Source of the DNA: Labilithrix sp.
GTDB taxonomy: Bacteria; Myxococcota_A; Polyangia; Polyangiales; Polyangiaceae
Assembly: GCA_019637105.1 (NCBI GenBank)
Contig: JAHBWF010000016.1
Span: forward strand, 16,739 to 80,738
Direction of reading: 5' to 3'
Length of the DNA stretch: 64,000 nt
Shown in pieces: positions 52,687 to 64,000 of the stretch (position 1 is its first letter; every line of letters begins with the position of its first letter). The position numbers were made by a program, and so were the translations under genes. Below the pieces are notes generated by a model. That model was given only the letters and a program-made list of their open reading frames with translations, had not been told where the DNA came from and ran no database searches.

Positions 52687-52688
52687 TC
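52567..52688 (+). repeat. Two exact 40-bp direct repeats
   Basis: A 40-bp sequence beginning cggcggcgtcgcgcgcgccg and ending gagggctgcgtc occurs at 52567-52606 and 52649-52688, an 82-bp period. The second copy runs over the stop codon of the AgmX-type gene. The intervening DNA also contains a near-duplicate gacgcgggctacg / gacgcgggtacg. Function unknown. Confidence 0.85.
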
Positions 52689-54111
52689 AGCCTCCGACGC
52701 CGAACTTGAACGGGAAGCCGGCGACCGTCGTCGGTGAGTCGCTCGCCGGGAACTTCCAGCGCTGCACCTGGCGCACGACGCAGCCCTCGACGCGCGCGTT
52801 CGACAGCGTCGTCCCAGCGACCGAGGCGGTCGTCACGTTGCCGCCCGGATCGATCTGCCATTGAACCGTCACGCCGCCCTTGAGGCCGGGGTTGCGCTGC
52901 GCCTCGGACTCGTAGCAGGCGCGCACGGCGCCGATGTGGCTCATGACGACGCGTCGGATCTGCTCGGGCGAGAGCCCGCCCTTCGCGGCCGCCGTGCCGG
53001 TGGCCACGGCGACCCTCGCTTCGCCCGGGCCGCCTCCCGGTCCGTTGCCCGTGCCCGCGCCGCCGCCGGTCCCGCCCCTGCCGTTGCCGCCTCCGCCTCG
53101 TCCGCCCGGACCGCCGCCGCCCGCGCCGTAACCGCCGCCGTGGCCCGCGCCGAACCCGGTGTCGAGCGTCCCGGAGCCGAACGCGACGCCCGCGCCGGTG
53201 CCGCCGCCGCCGCCGCCCGCGCCCTTGAGGCCGGTGCCGGGGCCGCTGCCGAGGACGAGGTCCTTCGAGTTGAGGCCGGAGAGCGCGGACGAGACCGTGT
53301 TGATCGATTTGAGCGTGTTCTGGATCTCCTTGCCGGTGTCGCCCTCGAGGACCTCGCTGAGCCCGCCGTAGTGCGTGGTCGGCTTGATCTCGCCGGGGAG
53401 GCTCGTGTTGTCGGCGGTCTTGTTCATGCCGAGCTTGCCCTCGTCCCCTTTGATCTTCCGGCCGCCGCCCTGCTCCTTTTTGTCCTGGGCGCCCGGATCC
53501 TTGATGCCCGCGCCGCCCGCCTTGTCTCCTTCGGCCACGGCCGGCGGCGGCGGCTCGAGCTCCATGCGCTTCACCTTGAAGCGCGACGCGAGGTCCTCCG
53601 GCGACTCGAGCTCGGGAGGCTTCGGGTAGGGCAGCGGCGTCGAGAGCGTCGAGAGGAGGCCGATGCCGCCGACGTGCAAGATGGCGCTGCACAGCCCCGC
53701 GAGGAGCACGAGGAGCTCCGGCCCGCGGAACCCGGTGATCTTGATCGGCTGCGTGGTGTACTGGAAGAAGAGCGAGACCTGCCCGTACTGGATGAGGCCG
53801 AAGTCGCCCGGCATGATCGGGACGGCCGCGCTCGTCCGCGCGATCGCGACCGGATCTTCGGCGCGGCCGCGGAGCGTGAGCAGCCCGCCGAGGCACCCGC
53901 GCGCGTCGAGCTCCCATCCCCCCGCCGCGGCGCGCACCGGCACGGGCGACATCTCGACGCCCTCGGGGATCGGCAGGTTCGCGTCGGCCGAGTCGCCGAG
54001 GTGGAACGACTCACCACGCGAGAGCGTGCGCAGCGCGACGACCGTCGTGCCCCACACCACGGCGACACGAAGCGCGTTCGGCGGCTGCGGAGGAGCGGGC
54101 AGGTTCGCCAT
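52687..54111 (-). CDS. AgmX/PglI-type protein with TonB-like C-terminal domain
   Basis: A 474-residue protein. The N-terminal about 110 residues resemble an FHA-like or small-beta domain (VVALRTLSRGESFHLGDSADANLPIP). A transmembrane helix (about 128-150; LLVLLAGLCSAILHVGGIGLL) is followed by a long Pro/Lys/Glu then Gly-rich linker (about 155-370) and a C-terminal AgmX/PglI domain (VVMSHIGAVRACYESEAQRNPGLKG, then VRQVQRWKFPAS) with two cysteines. In Myxococcus, AgmX/GltJ works in gliding motility and focal adhesions and TonB-like function. The stop overlaps the second 40-bp repeat. Confidence 0.82.
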   Translation of the reverse strand: MANLPAPPQPPNALRVAVVWGTTVVALRTLSRGESFHLGDSADANLPIPEGVEMSPVPVRAAAGGWELDARGCLGGLLTLRGRAEDPVAIARTSAAVPIMPGDFGLIQYGQVSLFFQYTTQPIKITGFRGPELLVLLAGLCSAILHVGGIGLLSTLSTPLPYPKPPELESPEDLASRFKVKRMELEPPPPAVAEGDKAGGAGIKDPGAQDKKEQGGGRKIKGDEGKLGMNKTADNTSLPGEIKPTTHYGGLSEVLEGDTGKEIQNTLKSINTVSSALSGLNSKDLVLGSGPGTGLKGAGGGGGGTGAGVAFGSGTLDTGFGAGHGGGYGAGGGGPGGRGGGGNGRGGTGGGAGTGNGPGGGPGEARVAVATGTAAAKGGLSPEQIRRVVMSHIGAVRACYESEAQRNPGLKGGVTVQWQIDPGGNVTTASVAGTTLSNARVEGCVVRQVQRWKFPASDSPTTVAGFPFKFGVGG

Positions 54112-54247
54112 CGTCGTCGAAGCGTATCAGAGGCTCGAGCGCGACTCCGAGATCCTCGCTCCCGCGCGCGAGGCCGCGGCGAGCGCCCTACATGGACGCC
54201 TGCCGCCCCGCGCACGACATGTCGCACGCACGCGCCTCATCCCGGAG

Positions 54248-54281
54248 GGTGATGTCACCACGACGCCGCGTCGTGGTCACC
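54248..54281. promoter_or_regulatory. Palindromic site upstream of the addB-like gene
   Basis: accacgac (54257-54264) and gtcgtggt (54270-54277) form a perfect 8-bp inverted repeat around a 5-nt centre. ggtga (54248) and tcacc (about 54277) extend the symmetry further out. It lies 39 bp before the addB-like ATG within a 204-bp gap shared with the leftward AgmX-type gene. It looks like an operator, but the protein that would bind it is unknown. Confidence 0.45.
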
Positions 54282-54315
54282 TCGACCGGATGTGCGTCGA
54301 GGGGGAGCGGACGCG

Positions 54316-57090
54316 ATGAGGCCCATCGCGGGTCTGAGCCTGGGTGGGGCGGTCCTTCGGGAGCACACCGGCGCGCGCCGTGCGCTCCTCGGCGCGCCGG
54401 TCTGGGGCCCGAGCGGGCTCCTCCGGGATCTCGAGCTCCGGCTCGGGCTGCCCCCCGTCGACGAATCGACGACCGCGCGACTTCCCCGCTGGGCGGAGCG
54501 CGTCAAAGCGCCGGGCGACGAATTTGCATTCTACATGCGTTCGCTCGCGCTCGACGAGCTCGGGACCGCAACCGTGCTCCTCGAGTGGCGCGACGCGCTC
54601 GTCGAAGCGGGCTGGGACGGAGGACCGATCGCCGGCGGCGGCGAGCGCCTCGACGCGCTCGCCCGGCTCGAGCGCCTCGACGGCGAGGCGGTGCCACCAG
54701 GCCGCGCCGATCGTCTCGTCCGGTGCGCGCGCGCTCTCGCGAGCGCGCCGTCTCGGCCCTACGACGCGATCACGCTCGTCGACGACGCCTCGCTCTGGCC
54801 GCGACGATGGCGGGACATCTTCGATCGCCTCGAGGCGCTCGGGACGGCGTTCGCGCGCCTCGAGGTGGCACTTCCAGGCGCGCCTCCGAGCACCGACCTC
54901 GGGCTCCTGCAAGCGCGGCTCCGAGGCGAGGCGCGCGACGGGGCCGTTCGCGGCGACGGGACGCTCCTCTTCCTGCAGTCCGACACCCCGAGCGATCTCG
55001 CCGAGCTCACGGCGGCGCTGCTGGCGCAAGGGCGAACGCGGGGCTCGGACGTCGTCGTTCGCTGCCGTGACGCCCAGACGCTCGAAGCCGGGCTCGCTCG
55101 ACAGGGGCTTCCGGCGCAAGGCTGTTCGAGCGAGAGCGTCTGGCGTCCCGCGATGCAGGTGCTCGCGCTCGCCGTCGAGCTGGCGTTCGAGCCGCGCGAT
55201 CCGTACCGCGTGCTCGAGCTCCTCACGCTGGCGATCGGGCCGTTCCGCGGTCGCCTCGGCGCGCGCCTCGCGAGGGCGGTCACGCACCAGCCGGGCATCG
55301 GCGGCAAGGAGTGGACACGGCGGAAGGCCGAGGCCGCGACGCAGCTCCACGCGCGGCGCGTTCGAACCGAGCTCGCGCGTGGACGTTCGGAGAGCGAGGC
55401 CGAAGAGCTCGCCCGCGCGTTCGTTGCCGAGCGCCTCGAGCTCGTCGCGACGTGGCTCGAAGGCGTCGCGGCCGATCCGCGGGGCGCGCCGCGCGGCCAC
55501 CTCCTCGCCGCGGTCGAGCGAGCGCGCGCGTGGCTTCGTAGCCGCCTGCGCGACGGCGAGATCGACGTCTACGGGATCGCGTACGCGCAAGCGGCGACGT
55601 TCGCGCAGACGATCGCGAACGACACGCGCGAGCTGCTCTCGCAGGAGGACGCTCGCCAGCTGCTCGATCTCGTCGCGCGGAACGGGCAAGAGCACGCGCT
55701 CTCGGTCGAGCTCGCCGGTCGCGTCGCCCACGTCGACCACCCCGCCGGTCTGCTCGCGCCGTACGATCGCGTCTTCTTGTGGAGCTTCGTCGCGGGGGTC
55801 GAGCGTCGTCCTGCCCGCTCGACGTGGAACGAGGACGAGCGGGCCGCGTTGCTCGCGGCCGGCGTCGCCTTCCCCGATCCGTCGGCGCTGCTGCGGGCGG
55901 AGGCCGACGCTTGGCGACGCGCCGTGCTCGCGGCGCGGGAACGCGTGGTCTTCGTCGTCCCGAGGACGATCACGGGGACCGCGACGGCGCCGCATCCGCT
56001 CTGGGACGAGATCCGCGCGCGGCTCGAGCTCGACGAGCGCGGCGCCGCGCGGCTCACGCGGGAAGCCCGGCGGATCCTCGAGCGTCGCGGCGGTGTCGCC
56101 GACGCGAGCGCGCTCGTCCCGCTGGAGCACGCTCCGCCGCTCCCGCTCCCCGAACCGCGCAGCGCGTTTCGCGTGACGGGCGACGCGCTCGGGGCGACCG
56201 CGGGTGGCGGCCCGACCTCCGTGACGTCCCTCGAGAAGATCGCGACCTGCCCGCTCGCGTGGGTCCTCGAGCATCGCGCCGCGCTCCGCTCGGGAGCGAT
56301 GTCGAAGGTGGCCACGGGGGCGCTGCTCAACGGAGGGCTGAGCCATCGGCTCGTCGAGGAGCTCCACGGGGAGGACGCGTTCGCGCTCGCGGAGGACGCG
56401 TTTCTCGCGCGCGCGACGGCGGTCTTCGAACGACTGCTCCGCACGGAAGGCGCCACGCTCCTCCTCCCTGGCGCGTCGATCGAGCGGCTCCAGCTCACGC
56501 GCCAAGTGCGACAGGGCATACGCGCGCTTTACAGGTACCTCGCCGAGGGCGGATTTCGCATCGCGGGCGTCGAAGAGATCGTGACGACCGACTCGGTGGT
56601 CGGACCGCTGCACGGCCGTCTCGATCTGCGGCTCGTCGATCGCGACGGACGCTCGGCGATCCTCGACCTGAAGTGGGGCGCGTCGAGCTACCGCGCCCTG
56701 CTCGCGGACGGCCGAGCCGTGCAGCTCGCCGTGTACGCGCGCGCGGTGGCCGAGGCCTACGGCCAAGGCTCGACGCCAGCCGCCTACTTCGCCCTCTCGT
56801 CCGGTGAGGTGCTGGCCGCGGACCCGCGAATGAAGCCGGAGCGCGTCATCGATGGACCGTCGCTCGAGACGACCTGGACGCACATCGAGACGACCGCGAA
56901 GGCGGTGCTCGAGAGCCACGCTCGCGGGACCGTGCACGTCCCGGGCACGAAGCTCGCGCTGCCGCTCCTCGACGCATTGGGCGTGCCGGAAGCCGATCGC
57001 GACCGACACTTCGAGGCGGCGCGGGACGCCGCCTGCCGCTATTGCGACTATGACGCGCTCTGCGGCCGCAAGTGGGAGGCGCTGACGTGA
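54316..57090 (+). CDS. AddB-like nuclease subunit of a DNA end-resection complex
   Basis: A 924-residue protein. Its C-terminal quarter is a RecB-type PD-(D/E)xK nuclease with Asp770, Asp784 and Lys786 (ILDLKW). It also carries an iron-sulfur cysteine set: Cys645 (ATCPLAWV) and Cys907, Cys910 and Cys916 (CRYCDYDALC). That set is diagnostic of AddB rather than RecB. The N-terminal three-quarters have no obvious Walker A, as in AddB proteins with a degenerate helicase fold. AddAB resects double-strand breaks for recombination. ATG 54316 follows a gggggagcgg ribosome site. Its stop overlaps the next gene in a GTGA junction. Confidence 0.85.
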   Translation: MRPIAGLSLGGAVLREHTGARRALLGAPVWGPSGLLRDLELRLGLPPVDESTTARLPRWAERVKAPGDEFAFYMRSLALDELGTATVLLEWRDALVEAGWDGGPIAGGGERLDALARLERLDGEAVPPGRADRLVRCARALASAPSRPYDAITLVDDASLWPRRWRDIFDRLEALGTAFARLEVALPGAPPSTDLGLLQARLRGEARDGAVRGDGTLLFLQSDTPSDLAELTAALLAQGRTRGSDVVVRCRDAQTLEAGLARQGLPAQGCSSESVWRPAMQVLALAVELAFEPRDPYRVLELLTLAIGPFRGRLGARLARAVTHQPGIGGKEWTRRKAEAATQLHARRVRTELARGRSESEAEELARAFVAERLELVATWLEGVAADPRGAPRGHLLAAVERARAWLRSRLRDGEIDVYGIAYAQAATFAQTIANDTRELLSQEDARQLLDLVARNGQEHALSVELAGRVAHVDHPAGLLAPYDRVFLWSFVAGVERRPARSTWNEDERAALLAAGVAFPDPSALLRAEADAWRRAVLAARERVVFVVPRTITGTATAPHPLWDEIRARLELDERGAARLTREARRILERRGGVADASALVPLEHAPPLPLPEPRSAFRVTGDALGATAGGGPTSVTSLEKIATCPLAWVLEHRAALRSGAMSKVATGALLNGGLSHRLVEELHGEDAFALAEDAFLARATAVFERLLRTEGATLLLPGASIERLQLTRQVRQGIRALYRYLAEGGFRIAGVEEIVTTDSVVGPLHGRLDLRLVDRDGRSAILDLKWGASSYRALLADGRAVQLAVYARAVAEAYGQGSTPAAYFALSSGEVLAADPRMKPERVIDGPSLETTWTHIETTAKAVLESHARGTVHVPGTKLALPLLDALGVPEADRDRHFEAARDAACRYCDYDALCGRKWEALT

Positions 57091-60000
57091 ACGGCGCCGG
57101 GATCACGATCGTGGGCGCGAGCGCCGGGAGCGGCAAGACCTACCGCCTCACGCAGGAGGTCACCGCCGCCGTCGGAGCGCGTGGGGACGATCGCGTGGAC
57201 CTGTCCGGGCTCGTCGCGGTCACGTTCACCAAGAAGGCGCACACCGAGCTCGAGGCGCGTATCCGTCACGAGCTGGTCTCCCACCGAGCCTACGACGAGG
57301 CGCTTCGCCTCCCGCTCGCATACCTCGGGACCGTCCACGCGGCGTCGCTCCGCCTCTTGCAAGAGTTCGCGCTCGACGCCGGCCTCTCGCCGAGCGTCGA
57401 CGTCGTCGCCGGCAGCGAGACGAAGCTCCTCCGTCAGGCGTTCGAGCGCTCGCTCGACGAGGAGGCTCGCGCCGAGCTCGACGAGCTCGCCGCCCGGCTC
57501 GAGCTACGCATCGATCATCGAACGCGCCGCGCCGACTGGGTCACGCCCGTCGCCGACATCATGGACCTGGCGCGCTCGAATCGCATCGCGCCCGCAGCGC
57601 TCCCGGCGATGGCCGAACGCTCGATCGAGCGCCTCCTCGCGCTCCTGCCTCGCGCGGAGGTGGACGCGAGGGCGCTCGACGACGAGCTCGCGCGCGAGCT
57701 CCGCGCGGCGGCGAAGGCGCTCTCCGCCGCGAACGACGGACGCAAGAACACTGCCGACGCGCTGCTCGAGCTCGAACGCGCGAAGAAGCGGCTCGCCGAC
57801 GGAGAGCTCCGCTGGTCGGGCTGGGCGAAGCTCGCGGCGATCGCGCCGTCGAAGGCTTGCTCGGGCTGCGTCCAGGATCTACGCGCCGTCGCGGCGCGCT
57901 ACGAAGCGCACCCGCGCCTCCACGACGATCTGCGCCGGGCCACGCGCGCCGTGTTCGGCGCCGCGCGCGCCGGCCTGGTCGCGTACCAGGACTGGAAGAA
58001 GGAGCGCCGCGTCGTGGACTACGTCGACATGCTCGACGGCGCGCTCGCTCTCGTCGAGCACCCGCGCGTGCGCGCCGAGCTCGCGCGACGCCTCCGGTTC
58101 GTCGTCGTCGACGAATTCCAGGACACCAGCCCGATCCAGCTCGCGCTCTTCGTGCGCCTGCACTCGCTGGCAGGCCGATCGGTGTGGGTCGGTGACCGCA
58201 AGCAATGCATCTTCGAGTACGCCGGCGCGGATCCGATCCTGATGGACGCCGTCACCGGCTGGGTCGAGCGTGAGGGTGGGGCGCGGGATCGCCTGAGCGA
58301 CAACCATCGGTCGCGCCCGGAGCTCGTTCACGCGTGCTCCGAGCTCTTCGCCGCGGCGCTCGCGCAGCACGGCTTCACGCGTGAGGAGGTGGTCGTTCGC
58401 CCGCGCCGCCCCGCGCGCGACGAGCTCGCGGAGCTCCCGCCGATCGCTCTCTGGGCGCTCGACGTCGCGAACAAGGGCGACGACGCCGAGGCCGTCGCCG
58501 ACGGAGTCCGCCGGACACTCGAGGCTCCGCACACGACGCCGGTCCTCGATCGCGCGACCGGAGAGGTGCGGCCCGTTCGGCCCGGCGACGTCGCGATCCT
58601 CGTGACGACGAACGAGTGGGCGGCGAAGCTCGCGAAGGCGCTCCACGCGCGCGGGGTCCGCGCGGCGATCGCGCGCGCGGGTCTGTTCGAGACGCCGGAG
58701 GGGACGCTCGTCGATGCGGCGCTGCGCTGGCTCCTCGACGAGGGCGACGCGCTCGCGGCCGCGGTGATCGACGCGCTCACGGGGTGGGGAGGACAGGGTC
58801 CGGACGCGTGGCTCACGAAACGACTCCGCGACGTGGCGCGCCGAGCGGCGGCCGACGACGAGACGGTGAACGGAAGCGTGGTGGCGCGCCCAGCGCGTAG
58901 GGACGGAGAGAACGAGGTGGCGACGGCCGACAGGTTGGCGCGCGCGGCGCGATCCGACGGAGAGAATGCGGCGGCGCAAGACGGAGCGGTTGATTGCGCA
59001 AACGGAGGGCATGAGGCGGCGAACGACGACGATGATGACGACGGGGTGTTCGCTCCGGCGGCAGCGGAGGCGGAGGGATGGCGTGGCGCGCTCGGCGCGA
59101 TCCGCCCACGTCTGAACATCTTGTCCCCCGCCGAGGCGCTCGACGCGACGCTCTCGGCGATCGACGCGGTCTACCTCTGCGCGCGATGGCCCGATCCGGC
59201 CCAGCGGATCGCCAACCTCGACGCGCTGCGGGCCGCGGCGGCGAGCTACGAGGCGCGTTCGGCCCAGGAGCGCGAGGCGGCGACGGTCTCTGGGATGCTG
59301 CGGTACTTCGACGATCTGCGATCGCCCACGCTGCAGCGAGACGAGATCCTCCCATCGGACGATCAGCACGTACCGGCCGACGACGGCGCCGTGGTCGTCT
59401 GCACCTACCACAAGGCGAAGGGGCTCGAGTGGCCGGTCGTCGTCCTCACGGACCTCGACCGCGGAGAGCGCCGCGACGCGTTCGAGGTCACGCCCGAGTC
59501 CCTCGGCGCGACCTTCGATCCGGACCACCCGCTCGCGGACCGCGCGATCCGCTATTGGCCGTGGCCGCTCGGCGCCACCAAGAAGGCGCCGCTCGCCGTC
59601 GCCGCCGCCCAGTCCGACGAGGGACGGCTCGTCGCCCTTCGCGAAGAGAAGGAGCGCGCGCGCCTCCTCTACGTCGGCTTCACGCGCGCGCGCGATCACC
59701 TCGTGCTCGCCGCACGCGTCTTGAAGGGCAGCGCGAAGACGGCCTGGCTCGACGCGCTCGCCGACGTCGAGGGCGCGCCGCTCGTGGAGCTCCCCGCGGA
59801 CGCGCCCGACAGCGCGATCGGCGCGACGCGCATCCGGCTCCCCGACGCGAAGACGCTCGACGTCGCGACGCGCGTCCTCCGGCTCGGCGCGGAGCGGCCC
59901 GAGTCGCAAGAGGACGCGCCGCTGCCTGTGTGGTTCGCGCGATCGCCGGACGTGACGCCAGCGCTCGCGCGATCACCGGCCGTGACGCCAGCGCTCGCGC

Positions 60001-60647
60001 GATCGCCGGACGAGGCCTCGTGGCCCACGTATCGGATCATGCCGTCGGCGGGGGCGAGCGACTGGCCAGAGCTCGCGGCGCGCGTCACGGGCGCACGCCT
60101 CGGCGTCGTCGAGCGCCTCCCGCACGCGATCGCGCTCGACGGGCACTCGTACGACGACGACGTCCTCGGCAACGCGGTGCACGCGTTCCTCGCGGCCGAC
60201 GTCGAGGGGCTCACCGCCGAGGCACGGATGGATCGCGCAGGCGCGCTCGTCGAGGGCTGGGGCGTCGCGGGCGTCGTCCGCGCGGAGGCGCTGGTGGCCG
60301 CGGGCGACACGCTTCGCGCGTGGGTCGCAGGTAGGTGGCCGCGAGCGCGATGGCACCGCGAAATCTCCATCGAGGGGGCCGTCCCGTCGGAGCACGGCGA
60401 GCGGCGCGTCAGCGGGATCATCGACCTGCTCCTCGAGACGGACGCAGGGTACGTCGTGATCGATCACAAGTCGTTCCCGGGAAGTACTCCGGCAGCGTGG
60501 CGCGCGAAGTGCGGCGCGTTCATCCCGCAGCTCGCGGCCTACGCGATCGTGCTCGAGAGCGGGATGGCGAAGCGCGTTCTGGGGTGCTGGGTGCACCTGC
60601 CTGTCGGCGGGGGGATGGTCGAAGTGGTGTTGGGGGTTGGAGGGTGA
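57087..60647 (+). CDS. AddA-like helicase-nuclease subunit
   Basis: A 1186-residue UvrD-family helicase fused to a C-terminal RecB-type nuclease. Walker A is GASAGSGKT (10-18); motif Ia is AVTFTKKAHTELEAR; motif II is DEFQDTSPIQLALF (342-355); motif IV is NHRSRPEL; motif V is YHKAKGLEWPVVV; motif VI is LLYVGFTRARDHLVL. Nuclease residues are Asp1113, Asp1126 and Lys1128 (VIDHKS). A long low-complexity insertion (about 590-660) with an Asp run and lower GC separates helicase halves, and a 30-bp tandem repeat precedes the nuclease. GTG 57087 overlaps the AddB stop. Confidence 0.9.
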   Translation: MNGAGITIVGASAGSGKTYRLTQEVTAAVGARGDDRVDLSGLVAVTFTKKAHTELEARIRHELVSHRAYDEALRLPLAYLGTVHAASLRLLQEFALDAGLSPSVDVVAGSETKLLRQAFERSLDEEARAELDELAARLELRIDHRTRRADWVTPVADIMDLARSNRIAPAALPAMAERSIERLLALLPRAEVDARALDDELARELRAAAKALSAANDGRKNTADALLELERAKKRLADGELRWSGWAKLAAIAPSKACSGCVQDLRAVAARYEAHPRLHDDLRRATRAVFGAARAGLVAYQDWKKERRVVDYVDMLDGALALVEHPRVRAELARRLRFVVVDEFQDTSPIQLALFVRLHSLAGRSVWVGDRKQCIFEYAGADPILMDAVTGWVEREGGARDRLSDNHRSRPELVHACSELFAAALAQHGFTREEVVVRPRRPARDELAELPPIALWALDVANKGDDAEAVADGVRRTLEAPHTTPVLDRATGEVRPVRPGDVAILVTTNEWAAKLAKALHARGVRAAIARAGLFETPEGTLVDAALRWLLDEGDALAAAVIDALTGWGGQGPDAWLTKRLRDVARRAAADDETVNGSVVARPARRDGENEVATADRLARAARSDGENAAAQDGAVDCANGGHEAANDDDDDDGVFAPAAAEAEGWRGALGAIRPRLNILSPAEALDATLSAIDAVYLCARWPDPAQRIANLDALRAAAASYEARSAQEREAATVSGMLRYFDDLRSPTLQRDEILPSDDQHVPADDGAVVVCTYHKAKGLEWPVVVLTDLDRGERRDAFEVTPESLGATFDPDHPLADRAIRYWPWPLGATKKAPLAVAAAQSDEGRLVALREEKERARLLYVGFTRARDHLVLAARVLKGSAKTAWLDALADVEGAPLVELPADAPDSAIGATRIRLPDAKTLDVATRVLRLGAERPESQEDAPLPVWFARSPDVTPALARSPAVTPALARSPDEASWPTYRIMPSAGASDWPELAARVTGARLGVVERLPHAIALDGHSYDDDVLGNAVHAFLAADVEGLTAEARMDRAGALVEGWGVAGVVRAEALVAAGDTLRAWVAGRWPRARWHREISIEGAVPSEHGERRVSGIIDLLLETDAGYVVIDHKSFPGSTPAAWRAKCGAFIPQLAAYAIVLESGMAKRVLGCWVHLPVGGGMVEVVLGVGG
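59941..60012 (+). repeat. 30-bp in-frame tandem repeat in addA-like gene
   Basis: The unit gatcgccggacgtgacgcca plus gcgctcgcgc occurs at 59941-59970 and again, with two changes, at 59971-60000, then partially to about 60012. It encodes RSPDVTPALA and RSPAVTPALA. The length is a multiple of three, so copy number can vary without frame loss. Confidence 0.85.
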
Positions 60648-60805
60648 GGGTGGCAACAGACGTTGCGAACGGGAGGGAGCGATCATGACGGATTCGACGC
60701 CTGGCTCATGCGATCGAACGGCTCTTCGGTCCCGGACCGCGCGCTCGCGCGCTCTCGATGGGTCACGAGGCGCTCTCACCGATGCGTTTCCCGCGTAGGT
60801 AGGAC

Positions 60806-62698
60806 ATGGCCGAGCACAAACAGCAGAGCGACGCGCCGCCGACGGCGCCAGCGCGCGCCAAGCCTCTTCCGCGGCGGCTGCCGCTCGCGACCGATCCGCC
60901 CGCGCTCGTGCCCGCGCGGATGATCAACGAAGCGCTCTACTGCGAGCGCCTCATGTACCTGGAGTGGGCGCAAGGCGAGTTCGCGGACAACGCCTTCACG
61001 GTCGACGGCCGCGCGGTCCACGCTCGCGCCGACGTCGCGGGCGGCGCGCTTCCGCCCGTGCCGGCGCCGGACGCGTCGCACGGCTCGTCGAGCGCGCGAA
61101 GGGAGGCGGACGACGACGAGGACGACGACGAGCCCGAGCCCCCTCCCTATCAGGCGCGCTCGCTCTGGTTGTCGTCGGAGGCGCTCGGGATGACCGCCAA
61201 GATCGACGTCGTCGAGGGCACGGCGGCTGGCGCGGTCGTCCCCATCGAATACAAGCGAGGCGCTGCACCCGACGTCGCCGAAGGAGCGCACCTGCCGGAG
61301 CGTGCGCAGCTCTGCGCGCAGGTGCTCCTCCTCCGTGAGCACGGCTATGCCTGCGACCACGGCGAGATCTACTTCGCCCGGACACGCAGGCGCGTGCCGA
61401 TCGAAATCGACGACGCGCTCATCGAGACGACGCGCGAAGCGGCGCGCCGCGCTCGCGAGCTCGCGGCGGAGGGCGTCATGCCGCCGCCGCTCATCGACAG
61501 TCGCAAGTGCGAAGGGTGCTCGCTCGTCGGGATCTGCCTCCCCGACGAGACCAACCTGCTGCGTGGTCACGCGCCCGAGGCGCCCACCGACGACGGAGGA
61601 GCGTCCAACGCCATGGACGACTTCTGGCCGATCGAGGCTGCCGGAGACGACGACGCCGGCGAGCCGGAGATCGAGCTACGCAGGCTCCAACCTGCGCGCG
61701 ACGACGAGCTCCCCCTCTACGTCCAGGAGCAAGGCGCTCGGATCTCGCTCTCGGGCGAGGAGCTGATCGTTCGCGGCAAGAAGGGCGACACGCGCGCGCG
61801 GCTCCCCAACGTCTCGCAGGTGAGCCTCTTCGGGAACGTGCAGATCACGACGCAGGCTCTGCGCGCGACGCTCGAACGAGGCATCTCGGTTTCGCTCCTC
61901 AGCACCGGCGGGTGGTTCTACGGACGCGCCACCGGTGTCGAGTCGAAGAACGTCGAGCTCCGCGTCGCGCAGCACCGCGCGATGGCCGACGCCGAGACGT
62001 GCCTTCGTCTCGCGCGGGGCGTCGTGGCGTCGAAGATTCGCAACTCGAGGACGCTCCTCCGCCGGAACCACGCGGCGGCGGCGGAGGTGACGCTGTTCGA
62101 GCTCGAACAGCTCGCGAAGAAGAGCGAACGCGCCGAGTCGCTCGCGTCGCTGCTCGGCCTCGAGGGGACCGCCGCGCGGAGCTACTTCTCGGCGTTCTCC
62201 GGGATGCTGAAGGGCGGCGCCGCGGAGACCTTCGACCTCGACGGCCGCAACCGGAGGCCGCCGAAGGATCCTGTGAACGCGCTGCTCTCGCTCGCGTACT
62301 CGCTCCTCACGAAGGAGCTCGCCCACGTCACCGCGTCCGCGGGCCTCGATCCCCTCCTCGGGTTCTACCATCAGCCACGATTCGGCCGACCCGCGCTCGC
62401 CCTCGATCTGATGGAGGAGTTTCGCCCCATCGTCGCCGACTCGACCGTCCTCTCGGCGATCAACAACGGCGTCGTCGGGCCGTCCGACTTCGTCTCGCAC
62501 TCGACGGGCGTCGCGCTCCGTCCCGCAGGACGTCGTCGCTTCCTGCTCGCCTACGAGCGGCGCATGGACCAGCTCGTCACGCACCCCGTCTTCGGGTACC
62601 GCGTGAGCTATCGACGCGTCCTCGAGGTCCAAGCGCGCCTCTTCGGTCGCTTTCTCCTCGGCGAGATCCCCTCGTACCCCGAGTTCCGAACCCGGTGA
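60806..62698 (+). CDS. cas4-cas1: Cas4-Cas1 fusion (CRISPR spacer acquisition)
   Basis: A 630-residue fusion. The Cas4 part (about 30-255) has RecB-type nuclease residues Asp134 and Glu148-x-Lys150 (IEYKRG), preceded by a His72 candidate. Its iron-sulfur cysteines are Cys46, Cys235, Cys238 and Cys244 (CEGCSLVGIC). A 30-residue acidic linker separates it from Cas1 (about 300-630). Cas1 metal residues are Glu453 (GLEGTAARS), His522 (FYHQPRFGR) and Asp534/Glu537 (DLMEEFRP). Cas4 selects PAM-flanked ends and trims prespacers, while Cas1 integrates them. Such fusions are typical of subtype I-G (formerly I-U) and some V-B loci. An aggtagg ribosome site precedes the ATG. Confidence 0.93.
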   Translation: MAEHKQQSDAPPTAPARAKPLPRRLPLATDPPALVPARMINEALYCERLMYLEWAQGEFADNAFTVDGRAVHARADVAGGALPPVPAPDASHGSSSARREADDDEDDDEPEPPPYQARSLWLSSEALGMTAKIDVVEGTAAGAVVPIEYKRGAAPDVAEGAHLPERAQLCAQVLLLREHGYACDHGEIYFARTRRRVPIEIDDALIETTREAARRARELAAEGVMPPPLIDSRKCEGCSLVGICLPDETNLLRGHAPEAPTDDGGASNAMDDFWPIEAAGDDDAGEPEIELRRLQPARDDELPLYVQEQGARISLSGEELIVRGKKGDTRARLPNVSQVSLFGNVQITTQALRATLERGISVSLLSTGGWFYGRATGVESKNVELRVAQHRAMADAETCLRLARGVVASKIRNSRTLLRRNHAAAAEVTLFELEQLAKKSERAESLASLLGLEGTAARSYFSAFSGMLKGGAAETFDLDGRNRRPPKDPVNALLSLAYSLLTKELAHVTASAGLDPLLGFYHQPRFGRPALALDLMEEFRPIVADSTVLSAINNGVVGPSDFVSHSTGVALRPAGRRRFLLAYERRMDQLVTHPVFGYRVSYRRVLEVQARLFGRFLLGEIPSYPEFRTR

Positions 62699-62707
62699 GT
62701 CGCGATC

Positions 62708-62998
62708 ATGCGGCAGACCTTCATCGTCAGCTACGATATCTCGTGTCCCAAGCGCCTTCGACGCGTCTATCGCCTCATGCGTGGATGGGGAGATCACATC
62801 CAACTCTCCGTCTTCCGTTGCGAGATGAACGCTCGTGAGCTCGTCGAGCTTCGCTCGCGACTCGCTCACGTGATCAACAACGCCGAAGATCAGGTGCTCT
62901 TCGTCGACGTCGGACCGGTCGAAGGACGCGGCAGCACGTCCATCCGCGCGATCGGGAAGGTCTATACGGCGCCGGAGAGGCGGGCCATCGTGGTGTAA
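62708..62998 (+). CDS. cas2: Cas2
   Basis: A 96-residue Cas2 with ferredoxin-like beta-alpha-beta start RQTFIVSYDISCPKRL (conserved Asp10), a central helix (RVYRLMRGWGDHIQLSVFRCEM) and terminal strand (QVLFVDVGP). The length matches Cas2 of I-G type loci. It starts 9 bp after the cas4-cas1 stop, so they are one transcript. Together with Cas1 it forms the integration complex. The GTG-free ATG at 62708 is the only good start. Confidence 0.93.
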   Translation: MRQTFIVSYDISCPKRLRRVYRLMRGWGDHIQLSVFRCEMNARELVELRSRLAHVINNAEDQVLFVDVGPVEGRGSTSIRAIGKVYTAPERRAIVV

Positions 62999-63501
62999 CG
63001 CGGTAGCCGCACGTGTTCCGCTCCAATCGGAGCCCGCACCAGCGAGGCCGACGAAGCCGCTCGATGCGAGGCTGGACGGAGGCGGACTGGTTCGACGGCG
63101 TCACGGACGACGGAGGCCAGCCTGGACAGGGCTGCGGCCCATCGGCATCATCCTCGGATGAGCGCCGTCCGCGCCAAGGACGTCACGCCGCCGACGGCGC
63201 CCTTCGACGAAGCAGACGCCTTCGGCTCTCCACAAGATCCCCACACACGACGCCGGCTTCGCACGCGAAGCCGCCCCCGCCCTCTCCTCATCGCTCTCGA
63301 CTGTCCCTTCTCGACGAGCACCGAATTGCAAGCCAATCCCCCCGAAGCGCTCGCAAGTCACTTGTTCTTTGAAATTCCAAGCATCGCGAGCGGTGGCACG
63401 ACACTGCACCGCCCATCGGAGGGGCTTCGCCGCGCCCTCACGTGCCACCGCTCGCAACTCGCTCGCCAACCCCCCGTCATCACTGGAGTCCTACGCGGTG
63501 A
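62999..63501 (+). other. CRISPR leader region, 503 bp, no gene seen
   Basis: Between cas2 and the first repeat. Frames across it are Arg/Ser-rich with no family match. It contains a lower-GC patch at 63355-63380 (cttgttctttgaaattcc), a perfect 15-bp inverted repeat at 63386-63455 and a short hairpin gctccaatcggagc at 63020-63033. The leader would supply the array promoter and integration anchoring. Confidence 0.75.
63386..63455 (+). promoter_or_regulatory. Perfect 15-bp inverted repeat in the CRISPR leader
   Basis: gcgagcggtggcacg (63386-63400) is matched exactly by its reverse complement at 63441-63455, with a 40-nt middle that itself can fold (gaggg/ccctc). The right arm ends 47 bp before the first repeat. 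Candidates are a leader-anchoring site for Cas1-Cas2 or a DNA-bending protein, or a regulator operator. Confidence 0.8.
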
Positions 63502-64000
63502 CTCTCCGCCGATCACGGTCGGCGGCTCCGTTGAAGCGCGGATGGCGTGGGCCGCGACGAAGCGCAGGCGCCCGCCGTACTCTCCGCCGATCACGGTCGG
63601 CGGCTCCGTTGAAGCGCGACCGCCGACGTCGGCATGTCGGTGTCGATCGTCTCTCCGCCGATCACGGTCGGCGGCTCCGTTGAAGCCGAGCTCCCCACGC
63701 TCGACCAGCTCGTGACCGTCGTTCTCTCCGCCGATCACGGTCGGCGGCTCCGTTGAAGCGAGACCTCGCGACGGGCAGACCGCGCGAGGTCTTTTCTCTC
63801 CGCCGATCACGGTCGGCGGCTCCGTTGAAGCACCTCACCTGCAGGGAAGTGGAGCCTGACGTGGGGACTCTCCGCCGATCACGGTCGGCGGCTCCGTTGA
63901 AGCGAGGAGAGCAACGCGCGCCTCTCCGGCATCGAGACGCTCTCCGCCGATCACGGTCGGCGGCTCCGTTGAAGCATACGCGTGGCATCATTCCTGCCTG
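63502..64000 (+). CRISPR. CRISPR array, seven 36-bp repeats seen, open at the right edge
   Basis: Repeats of 36 bp begin at 63502, 63580, 63651, 63724, 63796, 63868 and 63940 and are identical in all seven copies. They start ctctccgccgatcacggtcg and end gcggctccgttgaagc. Each has a perfect 7-bp stem, ccgccga / tcggcgg, around a 6-nt loop, so transcripts should fold for processing. Spacers are 42, 35, 37, 36, 36 and 36 nt, and the seventh runs past base 64000. The first spacer is the longest, which is unusual. The GTTGAAGC end is of the kind seen next to Cas4-Cas1 systems. Effector genes are not in the window. Confidence 0.97.
63761..63795 (+). other. Spacer 4 contains a terminator-like hairpin
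   Basis: Within spacer 4, agacctcgcg (63761-63770) pairs perfectly with cgcgaggtct (63783-63792) around a 12-nt loop and is followed by tttt (63792-63795). That is the shape of an intrinsic terminator on the array sense strand, inside a spacer. Confidence 0.75.

Follow-up and report, generated by a model that had tools for sequence, protein, structure and literature searches.

The window analyzed here is a stretch of 64,000 nucleotides from Labilithrix sp. assembly GCA_019637105.1 (positions 16739 to 80738 of contig C68, which is 80738 bp long). Its right end carries genes for an AddB-like protein, an AddA-like protein, a Cas4-Cas1 fusion, and Cas2, followed by a leader and a CRISPR array, in that order and on one shared (+) strand. 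The addB-like gene (54316..57090; 924 amino acids [aa]) overlaps the addA-like gene (57087..60647; 1186 aa) by 4 bp (GTGA), and a gap of 158 bp (60648..60805) precedes the cas4-cas1 fusion (60806..62698; 630 aa), cas2 (62708..62998; 96 aa), the leader region (62999..63501), and the array (63502..64000). This layout, from the overlap to the array, had been proposed in a sequence-only reading of the same DNA and is borne out by the coordinates. A simple scan of the gap found no promoter-like or terminator-like site on the + strand, a result that is a weak argument for linkage on its own because only sigma-70-type promoters are detectable by it; the leader, between cas2 and the first repeat, has one weak promoter-like site (63123-63151). 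The earlier proposal would have been taken as chance adjacency had a terminator and an independent promoter been present in the gap and the gene order been missing in relatives, but the scan was empty and the order recurs (see below). To the left, on the opposite strand, a 474-aa gene (52687..54111, -) marks the insertion site; a Pfam search gave no match for it, and TonB-like is used as a label only.

The AddA-like protein combines the N-terminal and C-terminal UvrD helicase domains (PF00580 and PF13361) with a PD-(D/E)XK nuclease domain at its C terminus (PF12705), its helicase and nuclease motifs are intact in a motif check, and among PDB entries its profile matches AddA 3u44 best (2.7e-39). 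With 148.7 bits against TIGR02785 (cutoff, 707.65) and 144.6 bits against TIGR02784 (cutoff, 860.75), it falls below both curated equivalogs and is therefore called AddAB-like rather than filed as the housekeeping enzyme. The predicted AddB has a PD-(D/E)XK nuclease domain (PF12705, 2.7e-21) with four cysteines of the iron-sulfur type, a pattern that is an AddB trait, and residues C645, C907, C910, C916, D770, D784, and K786 are invariant in the five sequences compared. Together, these features show the pair to be a predicted helicase-nuclease of the AddAB type, intact in the motifs checked. It shares with the AddAB of 3u44 the addB-addA order, the UvrD helicase and nuclease in AddA, and the four-cysteine nuclease in AddB, but differs in the low equivalog score of AddA and in an AddB for which the motif check found no Walker A motif and the searches found no NCBIfam family or PDB sequence match. 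Fusions of UvrD and Cas4 have been proposed as ancillary parts of several defense systems (PMC5704561), and these are likewise helicase-nucleases with a Cas4-like domain beside such systems. However, they are single fused proteins beside type III restriction-modification or Dcm/Vsr genes, whereas the window holds a pair of overlapping genes, one of them coding for an AddB partner, and the pair and its relatives lie beside cas4-cas1 or BREX.

The adaptation genes belong to subtype I-G: the Cas4-Cas1 fusion scores 730.8 bits against NCBIfam cas4g_cas1g (NF049935; cutoff, 560), and Cas2 (PF09827, 1.7e-16) has Cas2g as its best PADLOC model (1.1e-25). The array has seven perfect 36-nucleotide repeats at 63502-63975, with spacers of 35 to 42 nucleotides, and is cut at window base 64000, where contig C68 ends. 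It resumes at positions 1-1061 of contig C9, on which the same repeat occurs between 65 and 1061 as 12 perfect copies, two copies with 2 and 3 mismatches, and a cut copy at the edge. Contigs of this assembly break at arrays. No effector gene was seen in the window 3' of AddAB, as already noted in the earlier reading, which suggested that the array may be served by another locus or by genes beyond the right edge. The I-G effector genes to be looked for (cas7g, cas5/6g, cas3g, and cas8g) are in the genome, as an operon with an array of its own on contig C289, without a cas1 in the part seen, and no Cas1 other than that of the window was found in the genome. An effector immediately past the edge appears unlikely, as the three genes scanned next to the array on C9 are CBS, alcohol dehydrogenase, and APH-family genes, none of them cas. 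The locus thus has what a type I-G adaptation module has (a Cas4-Cas1 fusion above the I-G cutoff, cas2, leader, and array, with effector genes in the genome), but it is headed by addAB and its effector lies on a separate contig.

The genome encodes a second AddA, on contig C195, whose best PDB match is also AddA 3u44. This type was found in all 13 genomes of the genus, whereas the window type was present in 6 of 13, and a close form was present in 19 of the 318 genomes of the class. A housekeeping AddAB is expected in nearly all genomes of a group; unlike the AddAB of 3u44, the window pair is an accessory copy, extra to another AddA, patchily distributed, and placed at defense loci. That it is such an extra copy was a point absent from the sequence-only reading. 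Within the genus, the AddAB-cas unit occupies two chromosomal sites, one common to G000, G256, G257, and G251 and another in G254. One of the sites is empty in three genomes; the 474-aa flanking gene is found in 11 of the 13 and, where the site is empty, adjoins the gene found here on C9. The possibility of a housekeeping AddAB that merely happens to be the next-door neighbor was discarded on the basis of the distribution and the empty sites.

To see what accompanies the close form, 23 AddA loci were compared: 11 lie at cas4-cas1, 2 adjoin BREX genes, 4 are next to neither system, and the remaining 6 are truncated at the end of a contig. In 10 of the 11 cas4-cas1 loci, AddAB is upstream and on the same strand, and in 5 no gene intervenes, so that cas4-cas1 itself, and not the effector, is the direct neighbor; in four relatives the I-G effector is placed between the two. 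The distance from addA to cas4-cas1 ranges from 158 bp down to 2 nucleotides (stop to start, in G296), and the order recurs outside the genus, in genera g24, g40, g44, and g46. The survey for AddAB beside cas4-cas1 that had been suggested at the outset therefore shows that the pair repeatedly heads a cas4-cas1-cas2 locus as its two leading genes, and that it does so at more than one place in the chromosome. Three loci count against an adaptation operon: in G186 AddAB is on the opposite strand about 9 kb away, the cas4-cas1 frame of G288 is truncated, with 308 aa left, and G251 has retained cas4-cas1 and cas2 but, of AddAB, no more than a remnant of AddB. At the level of genomes, cas4g-cas1g was also present in 17 of the 19 with a close AddA versus 86 of the other 299 of the class (Fisher's test, P = 1.7e-7) and, within the family, in 14 of 16 versus 32 of 93 (P = 1.5e-4), both tests being based on manual tallies uncorrected for relatedness. 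Conversely, 86 of the 103 genomes with cas4g-cas1g lack a close AddA, which also speaks against that reading, as does an AddB in which no Walker A motif was found and which has no curated or PDB sequence match.

The distances between AddA and between Cas4-Cas1 sequences were correlated over 10 loci (r = 0.884; 2 of 20000 permutations), a correlation that is driven by two close clusters and fails for G295 and G296, where partners were exchanged and the gene order was kept, a pattern that favors the operon reading. On an AddA tree from which short rows were left out (G278 [C452], G134, L158, L179, and L185), the type of neighbor changed about six times, a rough count because "other" neighbors, 19 of the 32 rows, include the short-flanked L143, L157, L160, and G047. 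More distant AddA genes precede one type I-B and one type I-C operon; in the class of the Verrucomicrobia genome with the latter, 1 of 384 genomes matched at an E value of ≤1e-100, only the one already known. Cas1 was present in all five genomes checked (L156, L143, L157, L160, and L138), with its distance from AddAB worked out for L156 alone. When 135 neighbors of 60 AddAB loci were compared with PADLOC, Cas3 was found in six and Cas4-Cas1 in six (among the best 25 of 263 families), and a recheck named five of the six Cas3, one of the six Cas4-Cas1 being the cut G288 frame. For 120 neighbors of 20 C195-type AddA loci, used as a control, the matches were mostly of the kinase type (among the best 25 of 80 families). 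As both comparisons cover the best 25 families alone and the AddAB set includes loci already known as CRISPR and omits 25 actinobacterial and six plasmid loci, we consider this test weak as support for a CRISPR link.

The DNA fragments used in CRISPR adaptation are generally taken to come from repair enzymes with a housekeeping role. RecBCD has been reported to be necessary in some type I systems, and adaptation in a type III-A system to be enhanced by AddAB (PMC9048733); the function that we infer for the window pair is the same, but the enzyme described there is a housekeeping one, whereas here it is encoded among the adaptation genes. Our preferred reading, held tentatively and at somewhat less than an even chance, is that an accessory AddAB-type helicase-nuclease is now part of a type I-G adaptation operon, with prespacer supply as its likeliest role. 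AddA-AddB would load onto foreign DNA, linear or broken, at its free ends, unwinding and cutting it; Cas4 would trim the resulting fragments and Cas1-Cas2 would integrate them, one operon for all coupling fragment supply to integration, and the crRNAs might then serve the effector encoded on C289. If this were true, the dependence of adaptation on housekeeping enzymes could be tested directly by supplying or deleting a single pair of genes. It is possible, if rather doubtful, that the pair is a mobile cassette acting as a dedicated, prespacer-generating third element beside Cas4-Cas1-Cas2, used by subtypes I-G, I-B, and I-C and also by BREX, which would free adaptation from the host RecBCD or AddAB.

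The main rival to the prespacer role is a general antiphage nuclease common to defense systems, which would destroy phage DNA ends alone or with the neighboring system and supply spacers at most as a by-product; we regard it as a serious possibility, though one that leans toward doubt. It is favored by the BREX loci: the brxA-brxB-brxC genes of G208 come after AddAB and a 188-aa gene, and pglZ and brxL lie farther along, and in G305 AddAB is also ahead of BREX genes. AddAB is not known to be among the BREX genes. With these two loci beside BREX and four others beside neither system, the pair is also used without cas1, which counts against the adaptation reading. Of the earlier claim of a dedicated supply line, the meaningful adjacency stands by its recurrence, and the dedication to prespacers is no more than a possible reading; the same AddAB group also heads BREX operons. 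Such pairs point to a DNA-end step common to unrelated defense systems. Six neighborhoods read among 27 plasmid records with a relative have ThiF/Mov34, WYL, methylase, restriction endonuclease, SIR2, phospholipase D, or SNF2 annotations nearby, in keeping with a general nuclease, as is the SNF2/HKD helicase 3' of AddA in L202. Against it, CRISPR is by far the commonest neighbor in the close group (11 versus 2 of 23), with cas4-cas1 rather than the effector directly adjoining in 5 of the 11. More broadly, the presence of relatives of this AddAB beside CRISPR or other virus defense genes in other bacteria suggests that it helps in the handling of viral DNA. In the literature searched, which included PMC5704561, PMC6452273, PMC9048733, and PMC9419969 and few subscription papers, no report of AddAB beside cas4-cas1 or BREX was found.

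We think it unlikely that the pair is a spare end-processing complex, that is, a divergent AddAB that escapes the phage proteins inhibiting the RecBCD or AddAB of the host, which would let repair and end degradation continue during infection and for which any defense system would be a suitable neighbor. Phages do encode RecBCD inhibitors, copies of different genera are only 47 to 57% identical, and the pair occurs beside unrelated defense systems, but the 2-nucleotide coupling to cas4-cas1 would be left unexplained and nothing in this analysis separates such a complex from a general nuclease. Finally, although the site shared by four genomes indicates that common descent accounts for some of the shared order in the genus, it is very unlikely that a pair of repair genes came to lie next to a CRISPR locus by chance, because the order recurs in relatives, at a second site in the genus (G254) and in four other genera, with a patchy distribution, and distant AddA genes precede other CRISPR subtypes (I-B and I-C) in other lineages.

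Re-examination of the window bore out the placement of features in the sequence-only reading, which had taken an AddAB pair directly before Cas4-Cas1-Cas2 to suggest a dedicated, co-expressed prespacer supply: addB (54316 to 57090), addA (57087 to 60647), a fused cas4-cas1 (cas4-1, 60806 to 62698), cas2 (62708 to 62998), a leader and a repeat array (63502 to 64000) follow one another on the forward strand, as called by a codon-model script written for this analysis. The GTG start of addA lies at 57087, and the TGA stop of addB at 57088 to 57090. A terminator and an independent promoter in 60648 to 60805, combined with a lack of this gene order in related genomes, had been named as signs of chance adjacency; a simple scan of the forward strand revealed neither kind of site across the 158 bp before cas4-1. 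Over 54000 to 64000, the same scan returned a single promoter-like site, at 63123, within the leader.

The assembly (8.45 Mb, 334 contigs, completeness of 91.5% and contamination of 2.08%) breaks here, as contig C68, of which the window covers 16739 to 80738, terminates at the final base of the window. The repeat resumes in unchanged orientation on contig C9 (65 to 1061), where 12 perfect copies are followed by a pair carrying 2 and 3 mismatches, so that C9 carries the trailer end of the array; an additional copy on C9 is cut by the contig edge. Seeing no effector in the visible part, the sequence-only reading had suggested that another locus or genes beyond the right edge may serve the array; a type I-G operon (cas7g, cas5/6g, cas3g and cas8g, all on one strand) was found on contig C289. 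Csb1 family matches occur in the genome only there, and Cas1 family matches only in the window. The I-G-type array adjoining cas8g (L015:21-131) has a different repeat, alike to that of the window at 28 of 36 positions, with further copies at the end of another contig (C303:37162-37993). No cas4, cas1 or cas2 was seen beside this operon and array in the visible part. With an effector and two arrays present, one known adaptation module is therefore common to both, unless the unassembled DNA holds a second one. C289 might have been assigned to this genome by a binning error, but its proteins are 64 to 88% identical to the effector of a congener, G257. Contig C305 (L017:8040-8160) holds a lone repeat-like copy with 2 mismatches and a second, more decayed one, perhaps an array remnant.

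Other large UvrD-type genes are found on C195 (1180 aa) and C283 (1216 aa), both with a further long gene ahead of them on their strand. AddA (3u44, 9.4e-33) is the best PDB match of the C195 product, and the gene ahead of it has no PDB match; the C283 product matches PcrA, UvrD and AddA. At an E value of ≤1e-50, the C195 AddA was detected in all 13 genomes of the genus and 58 of 109 of the family. The window-type AddA was found in 6 of the 13 genomes of the genus and, at the same threshold, in 38 of 318 of the class (E=0 in 19 of these, with an 8-row profile), although further copies may have been missed, since the search scored only two candidates per genome. The fused cas4g-cas1g of subtype I-G occurred in 17 of the 19 genomes with a close (E=0) AddA versus 86 of the 299 others (p=1.7e-7, kinship ignored). 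AddA is intact in the motifs checked, and AddB in its nuclease and cysteine residues; a Walker A motif, searched for in AddB, is absent.

We compiled 23 close AddA loci, 22 with E=0 in the class search and one, L138, from an Acidobacteriota MAG, whose AddA sits in the same fully supported clade. Eleven lie at a cas4-1 locus on the same contig (the window, G254, G256, G257, G271, G272, G234 [C475], G288, G295, G296 [C13] and G186), two adjoin BREX (G208 and G305), four showed neither CRISPR nor BREX (G278 [C26], G296 [C40], G027 and L138), and six are cut by contig ends or have little flank (G255, G258, G067, G268, G234 [C197] and G278 [C452]). Genes that share a contig are securely adjacent; co-occurrence at the genome level hinges on binning, and the absence of a gene may be assembly loss, since most of the surveyed genomes look like metagenome assemblies. 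For 10 of the 11 cas4-1-linked loci, AddAB is upstream on the shared strand, and in five no gene intervenes, with gaps of 158 (window), 80 (G254), 70 (G234), 130 (G295) and 2 nt (G296), measured from gene starts in our own calls. An I-G effector intervenes in four (G256, G271 and G272 by PADLOC, G257 by similarity to C289). In G288, one extra gene intervenes and the cas4-1 frame is just 308 aa, and in G186, AddAB lies 9.2 kb from cas4-1 on the opposite strand. The G251 locus (L056:4030-14905) has AddAB shrunk to an AddB remnant before the effector, cas4-1 and cas2; the cas4-1 match is split into three frames, and the Csx17-type I-G effector, cas2 and a long array are kept. The AddAB neighbors in G278 (C26), a 320-aa gene with a subthreshold WCX match and a 553-aa gene, both recur at a CRISPR locus of G276. 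Beside AddAB, effector and cas4-1, G257 carries a very long I-G array: the 8 kb of L225 contains >100 repeats, and L054, which overlaps it by about 0.6 kb, contains 46. In G254 (L051, 16064 to 19901), addB-addA-cas4-1-cas2 has no repeat array within 3.8 kb past cas2 and no adjoining effector. A gene of 163 to 173 aa recurs just upstream of AddB (L119:15866-16357, L077:6921-7442 and L095) and at the CRISPR locus L058; the L119 copy belongs to the Uma2 family.

The order of AddAB and cas4-1 is not a single inherited neighborhood. The gene at C9:9359-9781 and the 474-aa left-flank gene (52687 to 54111, reverse strand) nearly adjoin in G254, G261 and G262 (about 46, 323 and 875 bp), marking the site as empty there, and G254 has its addB-addA-cas4-1-cas2 on another contig. 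In G255 and G260, the site is taken up by other DNA (8.4 and 2.9 kb, respectively) that shows no similarity to AddAB or the queried cas proteins; it holds an island with AddAB or its remnant in G000 (the window genome), G256, G257 and G251. In the AddA tree, built by a quick method with SH-aLRT support only, the rows linked to CRISPR divide among three subclades, the sister of BREX-linked G208 is G288, a CRISPR-linked row, and a rough minimum of 6 label changes is needed over 32 labeled rows. The AddA of G296 is 47 to 49% identical to the other nine, yet its Cas4-1 is 75% identical to that of G271; conversely, the Cas4-1 of G295 is 53 to 57% identical to the other nine, yet its AddA is 57% identical to that of G234. 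Partners were swapped, with gene order kept.

AddAB, type I-G and helicase-nucleases as defense helpers are already known. Some type I systems reportedly require RecBCD for adaptation, and AddAB boosts that of a type III-A system from free ends (PMC9048733); the activity of RecBCD or AddAB has likewise been called upon to explain spacers near replication termini (PMC9419969). UvrD-Cas4 fusions are proposed as ancillary to several defense systems (PMC5704561), and AddAB is reported to co-occur with CRISPR subtypes at the genome level, gene adjacency going unreported (PMC6452273). The literature searched yielded no description of AddAB ahead of BREX or as part of a CRISPR adaptation operon. Gene order, distribution, intact motifs and the repeated pairing are direct observations; in their simplest reading, the accessory AddAB would load at free DNA ends and make fragments, coupled to Cas4-Cas1-Cas2. 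The strongest rival is that AddAB is a general DNA-end nuclease, because the pair beside BREX must have a use without spacer acquisition: addB and addA are followed by a 188-aa gene, brxA, brxB and brxC in G208, with pglZ and brxL farther along, and by two genes, brxB, brxC and the start of pglX, where the contig ends, in G305.

More distant AddA relatives, surveyed outside the actinobacterial clade, also reach other CRISPR types. In G052 (type I-B), one precedes cas3, a Cas8b gene and cas4-1. The L156 locus of a Verrucomicrobia MAG is type I-C: addB and addA precede cas3, a 291-aa ORF, a Cas8c-type protein (PDB matches 7kha and 8dej), further ORFs, cas1, a 96-aa ORF in the cas2 position and an array, with cas5, cas7, cas4 and cas2 named from position and size alone. 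Its AddA type was found in 1 of 384 genomes of its class. Relatives also occur on plasmids (27 of 72,556 records, 30 to 38% identity); by depositors' product names, five of six neighborhoods read have defense-type genes and the sixth has an SNF2-related gene. Not all distant relatives are at defense loci, the adjoining gene in L154 reading as DNA polymerase III alpha. On Bradyrhizobium barranii and Rhizobium leguminosarum plasmids (L228 and L231), ThiF-family genes occur one or two genes away from AddAB relatives, and Mov34 or multiubiquitin domains are encoded close by, which gives a ubiquitin-like defense context. Two distant AddAB pairs, in L126 and L168, have the same two neighbors: a gene for a DEAD/Lhr-type helicase, 702 aa long in L126, and a gene of 442 aa.
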